A stretch of DNA of 64,000 nucleotides, taken from positions 18,109,272 through 18,173,271 of the forward strand of contig NC_089276.1 of NCBI RefSeq assembly GCF_963678975.1, written 5' to 3'. Positions 2,287 to 64,000 of the stretch are shown piece after piece (position 1 is the first letter of the stretch; each line of letters opens with the position of its first letter). Made by a program: the position numbers and the translations under genes. Source of the DNA: Dysidea avara (Eukaryota > Porifera > Demospongiae > Dictyoceratida > Dysideidae). The notes beneath the pieces are model-generated. The model saw only the letters and a list, made by a program, of their open reading frames with translations, made no database searches and was not told the DNA's origin.

Positions 2287-5200
2287 TCAAGACACACGGT
2301 AGTGTGTCGTGCGGCCCAAGAAGCCAGCGCGTAACACCCGTGAGTATATTGACAGGAAGAAAGAAAACGCAATTTTTGCACCTCCGTAGCTCTGTGCTGC
2401 CTTGATGAAACAAGACGATTTTTGCTGTGGACACTCCCTCCAACTTCAGCACTCCACATTCCAAATTTGAGCGAAATCGCTTCAAGCGTTCCCGAGATAT
2501 GCGACTTCAAAAATTGGCTTAGTTTCTTCGTCTTTTTTTTCTTATTTTTCTTTCTCTTGTCGCACACTTACAAAAACTGCTATAAAACGCGAACGCCATA
2601 TCCGATCGCCTTGAAATTTGGCACACAGAAGGGGGGTATAAAGGCGCATCTCTGTACCAACTTTGGCTGGAATACGATAAACAGGCAAAGAGGTATGAGC
2701 TATTATTCACGAAAAATAACACCAATATGTTGTCACGCCTACAGGGTAAACCGCGTATGGGAAGAAGCTGAAAATCGGTGGGTGAATAGGTTAACTATTG
2801 AACCTCAAACCTTTTGTGGTTTGAAAGAAATCGAGCTAAAAACCAGGAAGATACAACGAAAAAACCAACAGTGTGCAACAATTACGCAATCGAGATTAGC
2901 TAATAAAAAACGACTGCTTGCCACGCCTACCAGATAAACCGCTTAGGGTAATGCTTTGAAAATCGCTGTACAGATGGAGTTATCATCTTAGAAAGGCTCT
3001 TCAATGGTGTAGAAGAATCAGACTTAAAGCCACGGAGTTATAACACGAAATCCAACTTGGTGTAGAAAGTGCGAGATCGAGATACTCTAATAGAGCAGTC
3101 AACCTAATAGAGCAGTCATCCTAATAGAGCAGTCACCCGAAGAGAATTCAAGAGATCACCTAGAAACAAGTAACCTGTATAGAGATCAGCTACAAACAAT
3201 TCACCCTGTGGAGAGATCAGCCACAAACAATTCACCCTGTAGAGAGATCAGCTAGAAGAAGTTACCTTGTAGGGAATTCATGCAACTATAGAAAGAGACA
3301 ATTCAACTAGAAGAAATCACCTTGTAGAGTTCAGCTACAAAGAAACCACAATGTAGAGAGTTCAGCTACAAACAAATCGCCCTGTAGAGAGATCAGCTAG
3401 AAGAAGTTACCTTGTAGAGAGTTCAGTTACAAAGAAACCACCATGTAGAGAATTCATTTACAAACTAGTGACCCTGTAGAGACATCAGCTAGAAGAAGTT
3501 ACCTTGTAAAGAGTTCAGCTACATAGAAACCATTCTGTGAAGAGCTCAGCTGCAAACAAATCACCTATACAGAATTCAGCTACAAACAAATCACCCTGTA
3601 GAGAGATCAGCTAGAAGAAGTTACCTTGTTGATAGTTCAGCTACAAACAAAACACCCTGTAGAGAGATCAGCTAGAAGAAGTTACCTTGTAGAGAGTTCA
3701 GCTACAAAGAAACCATCATGTGGAGAGTTCAGCTGCAAACAAATCACCTGTAGAGAGTTCAGCTACAAACCAATCTCCCTGTAGAGAGATCAGCTAGAAG
3801 AAGGTACCTTGTAGAGAGTTCAGCCACAAACAAATCACCCTTTAGAAAGATCAGCTAGAAGAAGTTACCTTGTAGAGAGTTCAGTTACAAAGAAACCACC
3901 ATGTAGAAAGTTCAGCTACAAACTAGTGACCTTGTGGAGACATCAGCTAGAAGAAGCTACCTTGTAGAGAGTTCAGCTACAAAGAAACCATTCTGTAAAG
4001 AGCTCAGCTGCAAACAAATCACCTGTAGAGAGTTCAGCTACAAACAAATCACCCTGTAGAAAGATCAGCTAGAAGAAGTCACCTTGTAGAGAGTTCAGCT
4101 ACAAAGAAACCACCATGTAGGGAGTTCAGCTAGAAGAAGTTACCTTGTAGAGAGTTCAACTACAAAGAAACCATCATGAAGAGAGTTCAGCTGCAAACAA
4201 ATCTCCCTGTAGAGAGTTCAGTTAGAAGAAGTTACCTTGTAGAGAGTTCAGCTACAAAGAAACCATTCTGTAAAGAGCTCAGCTGCAAACAAATCACCTG
4301 TACAGAATTCAGCTACAAACAAATCACCCTGTAGAGAGATCAGCTAGAAGAAGTTATCTTGTAGAAAGTTCAGCTACAAACAAATCACCCTGTAGAGAGA
4401 TCAGCTAGAAGAAGTTACCTTGTAGAGAGTTCAGCTACAAATTTAAAGAAACCATCATGTGGAGAGTTCAGCTGCAAACAAATCACCTGTAGAGAGTTCA
4501 GCTACAAAGAAACCACCATGTAGGGAGTTCAGCTAGGAGAAGTTACCTTGTAGAGAGTTCAGCTACAAAGAAACCATCATGAAGAGAGTTCAGCTGCAAA
4601 CAAATCTCCCTGTAGAGAGTTCAGTTAGAAGAAGTTACCTTGTAGAGTGTTCAGCTACAAAGAAACCATCAAGAAGAGAGTTCAGCTACAAACAAATCAC
4701 CCTGTAGAGAGATCAGCTAGAAGAAGTCACCTTGTAGAGAGTTCAGCTACAAAGAAACCACCATATAGAGAGTTCAGCTGCAAACAAATCACCCTGTAAA
4801 AAAATCAGCCACAAACAAATCACCCTGTAGAAAGATCAGCTAGAAGAAGTCACCTTGTAGAGAGTTCAGCTACAAAGAAACCACCATGTAGGGAGTTCAG
4901 CTAGAAGAAGTTACCTTGTAGAGAGTTCAGCTACAAAGAAATCTCCCTGTAGAGAGTTCAGTTAGAAGAAGTTACCTTGTAGAGAGTTCAGTTACAAAGA
5001 AACCATTCTGTAAAGAGCTCAGCTGCAAATAAATCACCTGTACAGAATTCAGCTACAAACAAATCACCCTGTAGAGAGATCAGCTAGAAGAAATTACCTT
5101 GTAGAGAGTTCAGCTACAGTACAAAGAAACCACCATGTAGAGAGTTCAGCTGCAAAGAAATCACCCTGTAGAAAATTCTGCCACAAACAAATTGCCCTGT

Positions 5201-6144
5201 AGAAAGATCAGTTAGAAGAAGTTATCTTGTAGAGAGTTCAGCTACAAAGAAACCACCATGTAGAGAGTTCAGCTAGAAGAAATTACCTTGTAGAGAGTTC
5301 AGCTACAAAGAAACCATCATCTAGATAGTTCAGCTGCAAACAAATCACCTGTAGAGAGTTCAGCTACAAACAAATCTCCCTGTAGAGAGATCAGTTAGAA
5401 GAAGTTACCTTGTAGAGAATTCAGCTACAAAGAAACCATTCTGTAAAGAGCTCAGCAGCAAAAAAATCACCTGTACAGAATTCAGCTACAAATAAATCAC
5501 CCTGTAGAGAGAACAGCTAGAAGAAGTTACCTTGTTGATAGTTCAGCTACAAACAAATCACCCTGTAGAGAGATCAGCTAGAAGAAGTTACCTTGAAGAG
5601 TGTTCAGTTACAAAGAAACCACCATGGACAGTTCTGTAATAAATATATGTATTATATATATAATTTGTACATTTACTGATAAAATCAGAAATATTTAAGG
5701 TACATCTGCTTCATCTTTTCTTCTTCCTGTGGTAAAGAAAAAAAAGATAGGTTAAAAAAGTCCCAAAGCAGGCCATAGGCTGGCTTTGGGGTATACAAAT
5801 ACAAAAAGAAGTGAAATCTAATCCAAAACAGCCAAGCTGTAGAAAAAGTGTGCGGCCCTCAAAAAGGCTATGGTGAAAAAAGATGTGAAATCCAAGGTGG
5901 CGGCCAAGAAATGGCTGTGATGGTAGGTTAATGGTAAAATTTTAATAACGACAATTCAGGTGAATTTTGTGCCAATTGACCAAGCGGCACCAAAATTCAC
6001 CTGAATTGTCGTTATTAAAATTTTTACCATTAACCTACCATTACAGCCATTTCTTGGCCGCCACCTTGGATTTCACATCTTTTTTCACCACAGCCTTTTT
6101 GAGGGCCGCACACTTTTTTTACAGCTTGGCTGTTTTGGATTAGA
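2287..6144 (+). mobile_element. Helitron-like composite element, copy A
   Basis: The order is: a 5' end starting TCAAGACACACGG with a small hairpin (acacac...gtgtgt); about 850 bp of conserved noncoding sequence; an ACTCTAATAGAGC cluster at 3065-3125; a 30-bp minisatellite; and a 330-bp palindrome ending GGATTAGA. The same order occurs inverted at 36818-40304, and a 5'-end fragment lies at 8597-8882. In all three copies the base before TC is A. In both complete copies the base after the 3' end is T. No target duplication is seen. A TC start, A/T flanks and no duplication fit Helitron-type insertion, but the 3' end is not a canonical CTRR. No Rep/helicase is encoded, so this would be non-autonomous. 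The open frame at 2422-2937 lacks any domain and overlaps conserved noncoding blocks. Confidence 0.55.
3135..5630 (+). repeat. 30/31-bp minisatellite array, copy A
   Basis: Roughly eighty head-to-tail monomers of the types gagagttcagctacaaaca + aatcaccctgta and gagagatcagctagaagaag + ttaccttgta. Several monomer variants alternate in a loose higher-order pattern (..caaacaaatcaccc.., ..agaagaagttacc.., ..aaagaaaccacc..). It is not CRISPR: there are no unique spacers. The same array occurs in the opposite orientation at 37262-39440 within copy B. Confidence 0.95.
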
Positions 6145-36817: not shown

Positions 36818-37144
36818 TCTAATCCAAAACAGCCAAGCTGTAAAAAAAGAGTGCGGCCCTGAGAAAGGCTATGGTGAAAAAAGATGTGAAATCCAAGGTG
36901 GCGGCCAAGAAATGGCTGTGATGGTAGATTAATGGTAAAAATTTTAATAACGACAATTCAGGTGAATTTTGTGCCAAGACCAAGCGGCACCAAATTCACC
37001 TGAATTGTTGTTATTAAAATTTTTACCATTAACCTACCATCACAGCCATTTCTTGGCCGCCACCTTGGATTTCACATCTTTTTTCACCATAGCCTTTCTC
37101 AGGGCCGCACTCTTTTTTTACAGCTTGGCTGTTTTGGATTAGAT
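36817..37144. repeat. 328-bp near-perfect palindrome, copy B
   Basis: It has the same arms as 5816-6145 (atctaatccaaaacagcc ... ggctgttttggattagat), with the centre near 36975-36995. It is the terminal structure of copy B. Confidence 0.95.
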
Positions 37145-40100
37145 TTCACTTCTTTTTGTATTTGTATACCCCAAAGCCGGCCATAAAGCCGGCCTATGGC
37201 TGGCTTTAGGGCTTTTTAACCTGTAATTTTTTCTTTACTACAGGAAGAAGAAAAGATGAAGCAGGGTGATTTCTTTGTAGCTAACCTCTCTGCAAGGTGA
37301 TCCTTCTGGCTGATCTCTCTACCGGATGACTTGTTTGTAGCTGAACTCTCTACAGGGTGATTTGTTTGTAGCTGAAATCTCTACAATGTAACTTCTTCTA
37401 GCTGATCTTTCTACAAGGTGATTTGTTTGTAGCTGAATTCTCTACAGGACAATTTGTTTGCAGCTGAACTCTCTACATGGTAGTTTCTTTGTAGCTGAGC
37501 TCTCTACAATGTGACTTCTTCTAGCTGAACTCTCTACAGGGTGACTTGTTTCTAGCTGATCTCTCTACAGGGTGACTTGTTTCTAGCTGAACTCTCTACA
37601 GGGTGATTTGTTTGTAGCTGAACTCTCTACAAGGTAACTTCTTCTAGCTGATCTTTCTACAGGGTGATTTGTTTGTCTCTACAGGGCAATTTGTTTGCAG
37701 CTGAACTCTCTACATGGTAGTTTCTTTGTAGCTGAACTCTCTACAATGTAACTTCTTCTAGCTGAACTCTCTACGGGTGACTTGTTTCTAGCTGATCTCT
37801 CTACAGGGTGACTTGTTTTTAGCTGAACTCTCTACAGGGTGATTTGTTTGTAGCTGAACTCTCTACAAGGTAACTTCTTCTAGCTGATCTTTCTACAGGG
37901 TGATTTGTTTGTCTCTACAGGGAAATTTGTTTGCAGCTGAACTCTCTACATGGTAGTTTCTTTGTAGCTGAACTCTCTACAATGTAACTTCTTCTAGCTG
38001 AACTCTCTACAGGGTGACTTGTTTGTAGCTGAACCCTCTACAGGGTGATTTGTTTGTAGCTGAACTCTCTACAAGGTAACTTCTTCTAGCTGATCTTTCT
38101 ACAAGGTGATTTGTCTGTAGCTGAATTCTCTACAGGGCAATTTGTTTGCTGCTGAACTCTATACATGGTAGTTTCTTTGTAGCTGAACTCTCTACAATGT
38201 AACTTCTTCTAGCTGAACTCTCTACAGGGTGACTTGTTTCTAGCTGAACTCTCTACAGGGTGATTTGTTTGTAGCTGAACTCTCTACAAGGTAACTTCTT
38301 CTGGCTGAACTTTCTACAGGGTGATTTGTTTGTAGCTGAATTGTCTACAGGGCAATTTGTTTGCAGTTGAACTCTGTACATGGTAGTTTCTTTGCAGCTG
38401 AACTCTCTATAATGTAACTTCTTCTAGCTGAACTCTCTACAGGATGACTTGTTTCTAGCTGATCTCTCTACAATGTAACTTCTTCTAGCTGAACTCTCTA
38501 CAGGGTGACTTGTTTCTAGCTGAACTCTCTACAGGGTGATTTGTTTGTAGCTGAACTCTCTGCAAGGTAACTTCTTCTAGCTGATCTTTCTACAAGGTGA
38601 TTTGTCTGTAGCTGAATTCTCTACAGGGAAATTTGTTTGCTGCTGAACTCTGTACATGGTAGTTTCTTTGTAGCTGAACTTTCTACAATGTAACTTCTTC
38701 TAGCTGAACTCTCTACAGGATGACTTGTTTGTAGCTGAACTCTCTACAGGGTGATTTATTTGTAGCTGAACTCTCTACAAGGTAACTTCTTCTAGCTGAT
38801 CTTTCTACAGGGTGATTTGTTTGTAGCTGAATTCTCTATAGGGCAATTTGTTTGCAGTTGAACTCTGTACATGGTAGTTTCTTTGTAGCTGAACTCTCTA
38901 CAATGTAACTTCTTCTAGCTGAACTCTCTACAGGGTGACTTGTTTCTAGCTGATCTCTCTACAATGTAACTTCTTCTAGCTGAACTCTCTACAGGGTGAC
39001 TTGTTTGTAGCTGAACCCTCTACAGGGTGATTTGTTTGCAGCTGAACTCTCTACATGGTAGTTTCTTTGTAACCGAACTCTCTACAATGTAACTTCTTCT
39101 AGATGAACTCTCTACAGGATGACTTGTTTCTAGCTGATCTCTGTACAGGGTGACTTGTTCCTGGCTGAACTCTCTACAGGTGATTTGTTTGCAGCTGAAC
39201 TCTCTTACATGGTGGTTTCTTTGTAGCTGAACTCTCTACAAAGTTACTTCTTCTAGCTGATCTATCTACAGGATGACTTGTTTCTAACTGAACTCTCTAC
39301 AGTGTGATTTATTTGAGCTGAACTCTCTACATGATGGCTTCTTTGTAGCTGAACTCTCTATTAGGTACCTTCTTCTAGTTGATCTGACTACAGGGTGACT
39401 TGTTTGTAGCTAAATTCCCTACAGAATAACTTGCAATGTAATATAACTGAGTAAATTATACATGCAGCTGAATGCTTTATTAGGGTGACTGTTCTATTAG
39501 AGTATCTCGATCTCGCATTTGCTGCACGTAGTTACCTTTCGAATCATAACTCAGTGATTTGTAATCCGATTCTTCTGTACTACTGCAAGAACTTTCTATG
39601 ATGATTATTCCAGCTACATACTGATTTTCAGCTCGTTGCTCTAAGCGGTTTGCCTGGTAGACACGAAAACTAATAGTTTTTTTATTCATAAAAACTGATC
39701 GCGTAATTTTGACACAGGTTGGGTTTTGTGTCATATCTCCATGGTATTTATCCCGATTCCTTTCAAACCACAAAAAGGCACTCCTACGATGGTTGCTCCA
39801 TCTACATATCAATTTTCAACTGATTCTTCCAAGGCGTTTACCCTGTAGGCGTGACAGACCTTCGATCTTATTTTACGCAAATAATCGGTCATAACTCCGT
39901 GAATGTTCATCGGATTCCTACCAAAGTTGGTACGGAGATCCGCCTTAATGAGCCCTTTAAGTGTGCCAAATTTTAGCCCAATCCGAGCACGCATTCGTGT
40001 TTTATGGCGAATTTTGCGAAGTGTGCGAAATGAAGAAGATGAAGAAGAAGAAGAAAAAAACGAAGAAATTAAAACGAAATTTTGTTCGCTCGTATCTCGG

Positions 40101-43399: not shown

Positions 43400-43603
43400 C
43401 TTCACGGACATTCGCTAATCTTCTCCTTCGCGCAATCTGTAATTAAGCAAGGGTGTGGTACTGGGCGTTATATAGAATTACACGCATGGTCAAGTCATCA
43501 GCACGAACGGGCGCAACGATTATACGTTTGTGGTATCGTTCACAGGCGAATCGATCCCCGGTTAGTTTATGTCTCTAGGCCTCGTAGTTTTCTCAAAGAT
43601 TAA

Positions 43604-44379
43604 TAATTACATAACCAAGTAATAATAATAATAAGTGACGTCATAAATAATTAAATAATTAATTAATGTACAGCGAAACTACTTAGCACACACACAAATG
43701 CTCACCGGGATTGTGTTAGACGGTAGTAAAACAGGAAAAATAAAAAGGGATTTTTTCTTCCGTGCCTTCGTTATTGAATACAGTTTTCCATATAACGCCA
43801 TCCTTTTTCAGTGCCTGACAACCAGTAACTCGTTAGTTACCACTCGTAAAACCTATTTGCGTGCCCAGAAACTAGTAAGGCCGGTTTGTAGCTCATAGCA
43901 ACCAATTCAAATGCGCTGCGCCGCCTGCGCGTTAAACCAGGCGCTTGACTCCTTATCTCCTATGAGGGAAAGCACTATTATTGGTGGAAGCAACGATGTT
44001 TTCTTACTTGGAAGTTAGTTCTATGTAATGTACTCCAACTATTACTTTACTGCAAGTAGTTTTTAGGGTATTCCATTTGAGTATTAAAATGCGCAAAAGC
44101 ATTAGAATACACTTACGAGATTTTAGCCAATAGTCAGTAGGGGAAAAGTCTTATTATTGGACCAAATTTACAAGTTTGTACTACTGTCAAATCACTGATA
44201 CTACGCTGTGTGGTCTGTTATTTAGTGACTAGTCCATAAGTGGTGACTTACTATTTGTAGCTACTGTACAAGCGTTGTTTAGCTATTAAAAAGGTAGCAA
44301 AACAAAATTTCTATGATAAAAGACTCTGTTTACTGTGCTCAGGATCGAGTAAGGGGCACCAAGAAATAGTTTTTCATAT
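43604..44379. other. Unannotated DNA
   Basis: I see no gene or clear element. It contains short TAA and AATT runs near 43620-43670. A frame at 43698-43898 has no motif. Confidence 0.4.
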
Positions 44380-49046: not shown

Positions 49047-50588
49047 TTAAAGGGAGTTGAAGTTAGGTTGGTGAGGGATCTTTGAACACTTTGAGCATGG
49101 ACATAGAAATGAAAAAGAGCAGGTGTTGTTGGTGGTGAAATTGACAGTGAAATGATTCCACAGATAATCTAAAAGTTTGGCCTTTATCTTGAGTGGGTTG
49201 TCCTGGTAGTTGATAACGGGAAGGGCATTCCAGATGCGAGGAAGCCGGTTAAAATAAAAGTTACTAGTGGAATTGTCAGGTGATCTTGTTTGGAGTAGCT
49301 TGTTTCCAGAAGCTAGACATGTGTGACCAGTTGCAAATTTAATGAAATTATTGATGTCAAATCCATTGTGGGGGTTGTGGAGATTTTTAAGAAAGAACAT
49401 CACATCATTTACATCAAGAATGTACATCAGGGGTAGCATATGGAGATTAATAAGACGAGACTTGTAGTCAGTAGAGTAATCATTTAGAATGTATTTGGTT
49501 GCACGCCTCTGAACACGTTCGAGTTGCTGAATGTGCTTAATTAGGTGGGGTTTCCAGATGACCGAGCAGTAGAAAAACTGGGATCTAACAAGAGAGGTAT
49601 ATAGTCGAGATTTGGCTTGGACATAATTTTGTAGGGAGAAAGATCTTCTTAGAAGTCCAAGTACCTGATAGGATTTGGAGATAATGTGGTTATAGTGAAC
49701 ATCCCATGACAGGTCGCTTGATAACATAATTCATAGATCTTTGTATGTATCAACACATGAAATCTGGGAGGTGCCGATATTATAAGATGTTGGAGATTTC
49801 CTTTTAAAAGATAGCAGAAATATTTTTGATAGACCGAATAGAAGATTCCAGTGGGTACTCCAAAAGTTTAAATTATTTAAGTCTTCTTGAAGTTTAAGTG
49901 AATCTAGTGGTGAGGAGATAGTTTTGATGCATTTGGTGTCATCTGCAAATAGAAACAATAGACAAAATTTAATGATGTCCGGAATATCATTAACATATAT
50001 GAGAAATAGAAGTGGGCCAAGTATACTTCCCTGTGGGATTCCGGATAGAACTGGGAGAAGGTGAGACAAAGAGTTGTTAATCTTCACACACTGATAACGA
50101 TTAAGTAGGTATGATTCAAACCATGACCAAAGCTTGCCAGAAATTCCAAGTGATCAAAGTTTGAATAACAGTTCCTTGTGGGGGACACTGTCAAAAGCCT
50201 TTTTGAAGTCAAGATAGACTACATCAGTTTGGTCATTAGTACTATGTATGGTGTTCAACATGAGAAGCAACTGTTGCACTGTGGATCGATTTTTTAAGAA
50301 GCCAAACTGCTGAGGTGAGAGAAAACTTGAAATGTAAGAAATGGTTTTGTTGTAAACTAGTTGTTCTAATACCTTAGATGTTATACAGAGTAGAGAAATT
50401 GGACGATAGTTAGTAACTTGAGTCTTGTCACCAGATTTATGTACAGGAACAATCGTGTGTATGCGCCATTCATAAGGTATGGAGCAACTATTTAAACTGA
50501 TTGTAAACAAATGGTGCAATGGCTTAGCAAGAATGTTAGCATATTGTTTGAGAATCCTTGGGCCAATACCATCACAAGGTTGGCCCAA
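49047..50588 (-). pseudogene. LINE-d: reverse transcriptase, nearly open frame
   Basis: One frame covers the RT: CDGIGPRILKQYA, VPVHKSGDKTQVTNYRPISL, QFGFLKNRSTVQQLLLML, VVYLDFKKAFDSVPHKELLF, SGIPQGSILGPLLFLIYVND, LFLFADDTKCIK (FADD catalytic box), LNFWSTHWNLLFGLSK, LSSDLSWDVHYNHII and RRATKYILNDYSTDYKSRL. The C-terminus is NFYFNRLPRIWNALPVINY and FLCPCSKCSKIP. Only two in-frame stops interrupt about 510 codons: TGA at about 50154-50156 and TGA at about 49728-49730. It is a different lineage from LINE-a/b/c: the FxNRLPRIWNxLP and CPCSKC endings are its own. The 5' end is truncated at a hairpin (50550-50596). Confidence 0.85.
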
Positions 50589-50596
50589 GGATTCTC
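50550..50596. repeat. 17-bp inverted repeat at the 5' junction of LINE-d
   Basis: gagaatccttgggccaa (50550-50566) is exactly mirrored by ttggcccaaggattctc (50580-50596) across a 13-nt loop. One arm is LINE-d coding sequence (GPRIL). The other lies just outside the truncation point. Confidence 0.9.
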
Positions 50597-50599
50597 AAC

Positions 50600-51270
50600 T
50601 AACAATATCTCCCACCCCAGATTGAGAAATTACCGGAAAAGCACAAAAACAAACCAAAATAAAAAATAATAATACTTTTAAGTTGACTTTTGTAGAAAAC
50701 CAGCTACTTTCAAGTTCGATTGGCCTTTCACCCCTAATTATAGGTCATCCGAGGTTTTTGTCACAACCACCGGTTCATTCCTCCCCTACATGGACACATA
50801 GATTCAAATTACCCATAACTAGATCACTTGATATCGGGATTTTTGACTTTAAATCTCACATTCAATCTCATTACAAATCTCTTTTTGCCAAAAACTTCTT
50901 GCAAATCCCTAATACTAAAGGTACGATATCACTATCTGCCAAAACAACAAATTTCATAACTTTCCTTCACAGTACTCTTCACTATCGATGACAAAATTAA
51001 TTTAAAAATTTCATTCTCCATTACTTTCTTTTTTATTTTCCAAAACCCCCTTTATACTAAGATGATTCCTTTTTTTAATATTCTAAAAGACTCCTTCATC
51101 CCAAATAACTTCCAACTTTACAATGTCTCGCTTCTATCCAAAATATTAATTGCAAAAACTTATATCGCATATTAAATTTCTATTTAATTTGCACAATTTA
51201 ATTTTGCTTAATTTTAGATTATTCGTTATCTCTAGTCTCCATCTGTTGTTCTTTATACTAATTCTAAATT
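50600..51270. other. Very AT-rich stretch of unknown origin
   Basis: The plus-strand frame 50683-50991 (102 codons) has no motif I recognise. Base composition is unlike the flanks, with long pyrimidine-biased plus-strand runs. It connects LINE-d to the hairpin array and may belong to the same unit as the array. Confidence 0.4.
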
Positions 51271-51280
51271 AATAAAACCT

Positions 51281-51665
51281 GAATACAAAATGGATAATCT
51301 TTGATTGTCCATTTTGTATTCATTGAATCCACAAATTGATAATTTAAATTATCAATTTGTGGATTCAGAATACAAAAATTGATACAAAGTGTCAATTTTT
51401 GTATTCATTGATTTAATAAATGGCTATTTAATACCATGAGTTGAAAAATGTATTTCAATAAATACATTTTTCAAGTCAGTTACCCAAATTTAGTTTAATT
51501 ATTAAATTAAACTAAATTTGGCTAATTTATTAAATCAGAATACAAAATGGATAATCTTTGATTGTCCATTTTGTATTCATTGAATCATAAATGGCCCACC
51601 ATTAGTTTTCCATTTATGATTCTGAATAATAATTAATGTAGTTTTCTCAAACATTAATTATTATT
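51281..51665. repeat. Ordered array of nine AT-rich hairpins
   Basis: Consecutive stem-loops lie at 51281-51321, 51325-51366 (perfect 21-bp arms, no loop), 51368-51406, 51410-51536, 51538-51578, 51582-51622 and 51624-51666. The 51410-51536 outer stem gatttaataaat encloses hairpins at 51441-51474 and 51484-51521. Spacers alternate ATT, A, ATT, A, ATT, T. The first and fifth top-level hairpins are identical; the third shares their gaatacaaaa/ttttgtattc stem base. Five of the seven top-level stems open GAAT(A/C)(A/C) and close with the complementary ..ATTC. The structure is seen directly; the function is unknown. Confidence 0.9.
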
Positions 51666-51679
51666 TATTTATGACGTTT

Positions 51680-52312
51680 AGCACAATTTATTGAATCACG
51701 TATTGTGGTTGTTGGTGGTATTAAATATCCATCGAATTACATTTGGTAGTGTCGTCTAATTCTACTGACAATTTTAAAATTTTGATTGATAACTTTTATT
51801 CTTAATGTAATTGTTTATTGTAATGAGCAGGACTCACAGGCATAATGCCTTTTTCTCTGTATTTATTAATAACAATAGATGTTGGTGGTATCGACATTGT
51901 ATACTTTTTGGCAGGTGGTCAGGTTGTTTCATCACGTGATCCTCTCTCAGCGTAGGTTGGTGACAGGTGCATAGCTGCTATTGCGTTTTCGAGCCTTTGT
52001 TGTAATCTGTATGGCTCGATGTAGGATTTTTGGCCCCTGCAGCTAACTCGAGCCTATTTGGGCGAGAGTTCCATAGCCCCAAAGAAAGCCCATAGTGGGA
52101 TAGCAGGGGGTTCTATTAAGTAGCTAGTTGGAGAAATTTAAACCTTGACAAAGTGATTATCTTGGTTTTCCTGTCGCCCAGATGAAGTCTTGTCGCCTTT
52201 GATAGGCGCTGTTAAGCTTTAGCACGTGTGCCTGCCTGCCTGCCTTTTCATGGCTACCTGGCCACCTCCATGTGAACCATGCCAGCAGCACGATTAGGAG
52301 CTGCAAACAGCT
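51680..52312 (+). repeat. Repeat unit H2, copy 1
   Basis: It matches 63306-63920 in the same direction: tttttggcaggtggtcaggt, tttcatcacgtgatcc, tttttggcccctgcagctaa, tcgcctttgataggcgctgt and agcacgtgtg. It is interrupted at about 51740-51880 by a LINE-type 3' end (acaggcataatgcctttt then an A/T-rich tail). LINE-e lies at its right end. I saw no conserved coding frame. Confidence 0.75.
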
Positions 52313-63305: not shown

Positions 63306-64000
63306 TTGGTTAGCACATTTGTCGAATCACATTTTGTAGTTGTCGATGTTGGTGGCATCAACATTTATATTTTTGGCAGGTGGTCAGGTTGTTTCATCAC
63401 GTGATCCGGTGTCACGTGATCCCCTCTCAGCGCAGGTCGGTGACAGGCGCGTAGCTGCTTTTCGAGCCTTTATTGTAATCTGTATGACTCGATGTTGGAT
63501 TTTTGGCCCCTGCAGCTAACTCGAGCCTATCTGGGCGAGAGTTATTAATTAATTAATTTACTTACTTAATTACTTATACTTAATTAATTTACTTACTTAT
63601 TTACTTACATTCTAATTTAATTTGTAACTAATCATTGTACTATGCTCATGCATATGAGTCTTACAATTATAAAATATAATATAATAATAATAAAGAGTTC
63701 CATAGCCCAAAGAAAGCCCATAATGGGGTATAACTAAATGGCTAGTTGAAGTGTAAAATGATTATGTTGTTTGAGCTTAGTTTTCTTGTTGCCCAGATGA
63801 GGTCTTGTCACCTTTGATAGGCGCTGTTAAGTGTTAGCACGTGTGTCTACCTATTCGTGGTTGACCTGGCCACCTCAATGGAAACCATGCGAGCAGCATC
63901 GTTAGGAGCTGCAATTAGGTAATGATTGTTGATACTGAACAGCATAGAAAGGCCAGATGTTTCTGCCACCTTTATTGTAATTGATATGGTCTGATGCCAC
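63306..64000 (+). repeat. Repeat unit H2, copy 2 (runs off the window)
   Basis: It is the direct counterpart of 51680-52312. An insertion at about 63543-63694 (AT-rich, ctcatgcatatgag stem-loop, aataataataa tail) is flanked by gagtt and looks like a LINE 3' end. Copy 1 has the empty site (gagagttccatagcc at about 52065). Beyond 63920 it matches the flank right of LINE-e. Confidence 0.75.

Follow-up and report, generated by a model that had tools for sequence, protein, structure and literature searches.

A hairpin array in the nuclear genome of the sponge Dysidea avara, very probably a relic of mitochondrial double-hairpin elements

How mitochondrial hairpin elements arise, how they spread and how their arms stay matched is an open question, and one stretch of DNA from the sponge Dysidea avara raises it within a nuclear chromosome. 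The window that we analyzed is 64,000 nucleotides long and sits in a 42-Mb contig of an assembly of 551 Mb in 108 contigs; 385 bp of it (51281–51665) are taken up by an array of seven top-level hairpins, the fourth of which (H4) holds two more. All of these were re-found as the initial annotation had described them, as were the spacers, which run ATT, A, ATT, A, ATT, T. On the plus strand, H1 (51281–51321; type T1, with 16 hairpins at 15 loci) and H5 (51538–51578) are identical, have 19-bp arms with one mismatch, and fall within an identity that we measured at 49 bp (51281–51329 = 51538–51586). H2 (51325–51366; type T3, 12 hairpins at 11 loci) has a perfect arm of 22 bp and H3 (51368–51406; type T2, 14 hairpins at 12 loci) an arm of 18 bp with one mismatch. 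The outer stem of H4 (51410–51536; by eye like type T10) has an arm of 13 bp and encloses H4a (51438–51477) and H4b (51480–51525), with arms of 19 and 21 bp and one mismatch each. The arm of H6 (51582–51622; type T9, four hairpins at four loci) is 13 bp long, and that of H7 (51624–51666), which spans the junction of a nuclear mtDNA copy (NUMT) with a nuclear repeat, is 15 bp long.

The comparison with shuffled controls proposed in the initial annotation confirmed an excess of folding: the folding energy of 51270–51670 is −177.6 kcal/mol, whereas 100 dinucleotide shuffles average −61.8 (sd 4.3; z −27), and the array holds eight hairpins with perfect arms of at least 12 bp, against none in each of 300 dinucleotide shuffles. 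The description of the remaining stem cores as unrelated did not stand. Among 28 arm pairs, four are akin (H1/H2, H1/H3 and H2/H3, p 0.001–0.003; H4/H6, p 0.003), and the sequences of H1/H5, H2, H3 and H6 recur genome-wide as types, assigned by eye; in the other 24 pairs p was 0.05 or more, uncorrected, including every pairing of H4 or H6 with H1–H3 (0.055–0.436). AT-richness was dropped as an argument, since AT-rich sequence also continues past 51666. A 17-nt inverted match with one mismatch links the H4 loop (51420–51436) to 51716–51732, past the proposed NUMT end; none of 40 shuffled pairs gave one.

The neighborhood of the array points to the mitochondrion. A fragment of the LSU rRNA gene rnl lies on the minus strand at 50687–50838, 440–590 bp from the array. 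Both whole-window Rfam scans missed it; it matches Rfam RF02541 at up to 106.8 bits (E 2e-31) and was found by nhmmer (E 1.8e-22) with a profile from six bacterial 23S sequences, of eight fetched. Towards the array follow two further collinear LSU motifs on the same strand (50905–50976, at 50905–50925 and 50960–50976), with spacings of 34 and 77 nt versus 82–90 and 101–103 in the six bacterial 23S sequences, a shortening that would resemble organelle rRNA. The motifs were reached by one and none of 2000 mononucleotide shuffles, and both together by none; the first is weak by profile (E 0.042) and absent from the nhmmer listing. The rnl query matched 40 plasmid records, and 12 of the 20 matches listed cover 48–50% of the query at 69–72% identity; E. 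coli genomes gave no match to the rnl fragment query. Near the window array, six-frame Pfam searches under code 4 found no mitochondrial protein.

Judged by sequence, about 950 bp of rnl and hairpins is one among many mtDNA copies in the nucleus; it comprises the 5′ portion of rnl together with some of the rns–rnl spacer (50687–51637, rnl reading minus; ends approximate). A genome search for further copies, which the initial annotation had called for, disposed of the possibility that there are no others: a 401-bp array query gave at least 105 matches, a lower bound because 40 of 346 candidates were scored. Exact matches to the array numbered two, the window itself and a copy 364 kb away (L018, G000:C5:17794161–17797842), where the array and its surroundings, at least 3.7 kb, are repeated at 99.95%; this copy either arose by a recent segmental duplication or is duplicated in the assembly only. 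The rnl-side query (50599–51280) gave 32 genome matches, including copies on other chromosomes, and nine other copies stop at query position 678, equal to window position 51276, immediately before H1. Long rnl-side copies mostly begin at query positions 86–107 (one at 58), and query 1–93 (50599–50691) recurs elsewhere alone as a separate repeat at up to 95%; since this part is found without the rest, the mitochondrial part would start near 50687. The right end is placed at 51637 because a nuclear match begins at 51638: the loop and right arm of H7 (51638–51663) match a nuclear element at 43584–43609 in 24 of 26 bases, and H7 is mostly nuclear sequence. The region 43584–43682 is a MITE-like near-palindrome with ends GTAGTTT...AAACTAC, and half of a relative lies at 51638–51675.

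Sister copies also have mitochondrial genes beside hairpins. Among 40 loci fetched (L029–L068, the window apart), 33 carry family hairpins, and 14 of these proved to have mitochondrial genes or flanking rnl/rns (L029–L032, L035, L036, L038, L039, L044, L048, L049, L052, L064 and L066), few of the others having been tested; the loci are not independent, L055 and L056 being 99.9% alike over 1,458 bp. By nhmmer, rnl is present in L029–L033; Rfam, in 13 loci scanned, found rnl in L030 (model positions 571–2044, E 3.5e-79) and L032, and rns in L044 and L048. L029 contains rnl, cytb (E 2.5e-62), nad1 (E 5.6e-47) and hairpin clusters. With Pfam, L038 has a nad2/4/5-type domain, L052 has hairpins between cox1 and atp9, and L064 has them between cox1 and nad1, with cytb also present; L041 gave no Pfam match in 4 of 6 frames examined. 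In L044, hairpins follow rns, and the rns match itself contains one pair. The order in L032, where 310 bp in common with the rns-bearing L044 (96%) are followed by hairpins and then rnl, places the hairpin site in the rns–rnl spacer. With rnl beside the array and mitochondrial genes beside hairpins in sister copies, the suggestion that the array derives from palindrome-rich mitochondrial DNA proved right. The marks of a NUMT, mitochondrial gene sequence (rnl in the window; rnl, rns, cytb, nad1, atp9 and cox1 in the sisters) embedded in a nuclear chromosome, are present. A cox1 search gave 21 genome matches, all on contigs C1–C13, and several copies contain in-frame TGA, as would be expected under a mitochondrial code. 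The rnl-side and cox1 searches found no intact mitochondrial genome of the species in the assembly; the 5,000-bp contig C80 was not accepted as mtDNA, as it has an rns piece, hairpins and repeats also present in L068.

The hairpins themselves belong to a limited repertoire. A scan of 41 loci (L029–L068 and the window) yielded 201 hairpins, of which 109 have GA..TC ends and 104 of those are family-like; the 104 comprise 67 distinct sequences in 23 types, 13 recurring and 10 single, in a catalogue that rests on cut-offs we set ourselves (GA..TC ends, 85% identity). Spacers within six bases (n = 44) are ATT (15), AAT (13), A (10), T (5) and TTT (1); ATT and AAT are one spacer read from opposite strands, and ATT/AAT or A/T joins neighbors in 43 of the 44 cases. 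Where spacers are consecutive, a three-base spacer stands beside a one-base spacer in 16 of 16 cases, and this alternation points to a pair, hairpin–ATT–hairpin, as the unit. Such a pair may also be what moves. Positions in the outer 13 are paired in 1313 of 1352 cases, and in 92 of 104 hairpins the two arms match over all seven outermost bases, while in 12 they differ at a single base. The outer arms vary as matched pairs around a common core: one core has GAATACA on both arms (11 hairpins) or GAATGGC on both (3), and another has GAATACC on both (3) or GAATACA on both (3). The cassette repertoire and the spacing grammar are new here; searches of the open-licence PMC literature turned up no such repertoire or spacing rule, and subscription papers on Baikal sponge mtDNA may come close.

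One mitochondrial site bears several of these arrays. In seven rnl-flanked copies, the identity of the rnl flank ranges from 0.940 to 0.996 over 239–620 positions (21 pairs), and the same seven copies run by eye into five different hairpin arrays, copy C9a sharing its array with C6 and C4 with C9b. The type of H1 stands third in copy C1, and that of H6 second in copy C9b. Several versions of one mitochondrial spacer within a single genome make hairpin gain, loss and swapping directly readable, with the rRNA flank providing dates. Arrays would turn over fast through such events next to an rRNA gene that hardly changes, and the reshuffling would have occurred in the mitochondrial rns–rnl spacer before copying to the nucleus. 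Some array changes may have happened after the transfer.

We consider it very probable that the array lies in a NUMT and descends from mitochondrial double-hairpin elements of limited types, in which two hairpins would be joined by ATT and successive pairs by A or T, stacked in spacers such as rns–rnl, with fast turnover and, probably, recopied arms and inertness in the nucleus. Recopying of one arm from the other, by strand switching across the hairpin, would keep the arms matched and would explain why outer arms swap as pairs around one core; in yeast, passages of PMC3820800 report, template switching makes palindromes more perfect. A broader reading falls just short of probable: that this is an animal mtDNA with a combinatorial hairpin system of limited, interchangeable cassettes, always paired at three-base and one-base spacing, with outer arms and cores that recombine as matched pairs; the system would be rewritten at the same intergenic sites faster than the genes around it, and the nuclear copies would form a datable record of it.

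The double-hairpin elements in the mtDNA of Allomyces and other fungi have two hairpins per unit and are possibly mobile; the elements described here resemble them in having a hairpin pair as the putative unit. The mtDNA RHEs of demosponges, as far as passages of PMC2800124 describe them, are AT-rich near-perfect hairpins with arms of 15–18 bp, conserved stems and variable loops; they form tandem double or multiple hairpins, with types that differ by complementary changes, and Vaceletia mtDNA has repeated motifs in the rns–rnl, rnl–atp9 and atp9–cox1 spacers. The nuclear mtDNA copies share with them stem-loops repeated in mitochondrial spacers or rRNA genes, in tandem double or multiple hairpins. 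As to the host, the names of the hairpin-bearing spacers agree with those given for Vaceletia, and Ephydatia muelleri is the one named species among the 120 of 220 matches listed for one ORF, while LINE matches name other taxa. Compared with those passages, they differ in their 13 recurring types, paired outer-arm swaps and 3/1-base spacer rule, read in nuclear copies, in an AT content of 78% rather than over 90%, and in stems that vary between types. Mitochondrial gene copies in sponge chromosomes are known from passages of PMC12920757 and PMC11572364; unlike in the NUMTs described there, a single hairpin array survives in several versions in those found here.

The hairpins could instead be a nuclear repeat family inserted into or beside NUMTs, as H7, which is nuclear, and the 19 of 33 hairpin loci at which no mitochondrial gene was shown (few of them tested) might suggest. 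However, hairpins occur at mitochondrial spacers (rns–rnl, atp9–cox1 and cox1–nad1) in separate NUMTs, and the rnl flanks stop at the identical base in nine copies, which makes a nuclear family very improbable. An account in which single hairpin transposons inserted one after another, each duplicating its target, is quite unlikely: it would fit the common GAAT/ATTC ends and the nesting within H4, but not unequal flanks, with ATT at one end of a hairpin and A or T at the opposite end, nor their strict alternation; equal target-site duplications, by which a MITE or hairpin transposon is recognized, were not found in the array or in the spacers of the 41 loci.

Selection on RNA, as a structured molecule or a small-RNA source in the mitochondrion or the nucleus, would likewise keep stems nearly perfect and make outer arms change in matched pairs. 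This seems unlikely, given that the paired changes are blocks and indels, mostly transversions, that one site bears different arrays, and that the array contains no Rfam family at gathering score; nothing found here supports a small-RNA source. A G.U argument for a plus-strand RNA was set aside, as it concerned about two events.

As a relic of mitochondrial elements, the array is probably inert and without function in the nucleus. Matches to miRNA models, at 20–31 bits versus gathering scores of 52–230, were rejected, as were tRNAs in the window, weak mitochondrial-tRNA calls inside the array and a weak group II intron match; collections of viral and genome contigs contained no match to array or rnl strings. 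Hairpin clusters in nuclear assemblies may be organelle relics and not miRNA genes.

The nuclear surroundings include LINE RVT_1 domains within 49731–50594 and minisatellites. Near its 5′ end, at 50548–50598, the LINE folds back on itself, 19 bp of its sequence recurring there in inverted orientation around a loop of 13 nt; because 50599–50691 is a separate repeat elsewhere, this foldback is not a junction, and the idea of foldbacks at both insert ends was dropped. On the other side of the array, the 12-bp direct repeat TGTTGGTGGTAT (51710–51721 and 51880–51891) frames 158 bp that are missing from a related copy at 63310–63543, and the framed stretch is probably an insertion with a target-site duplication. 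Elsewhere in the window are two related long hairpin elements with arms of 35 and 60 bp (5936–6024 and 36916–37045) and two large minisatellite arrays with related units on opposite strands (3151–5623 and 37262–39424).
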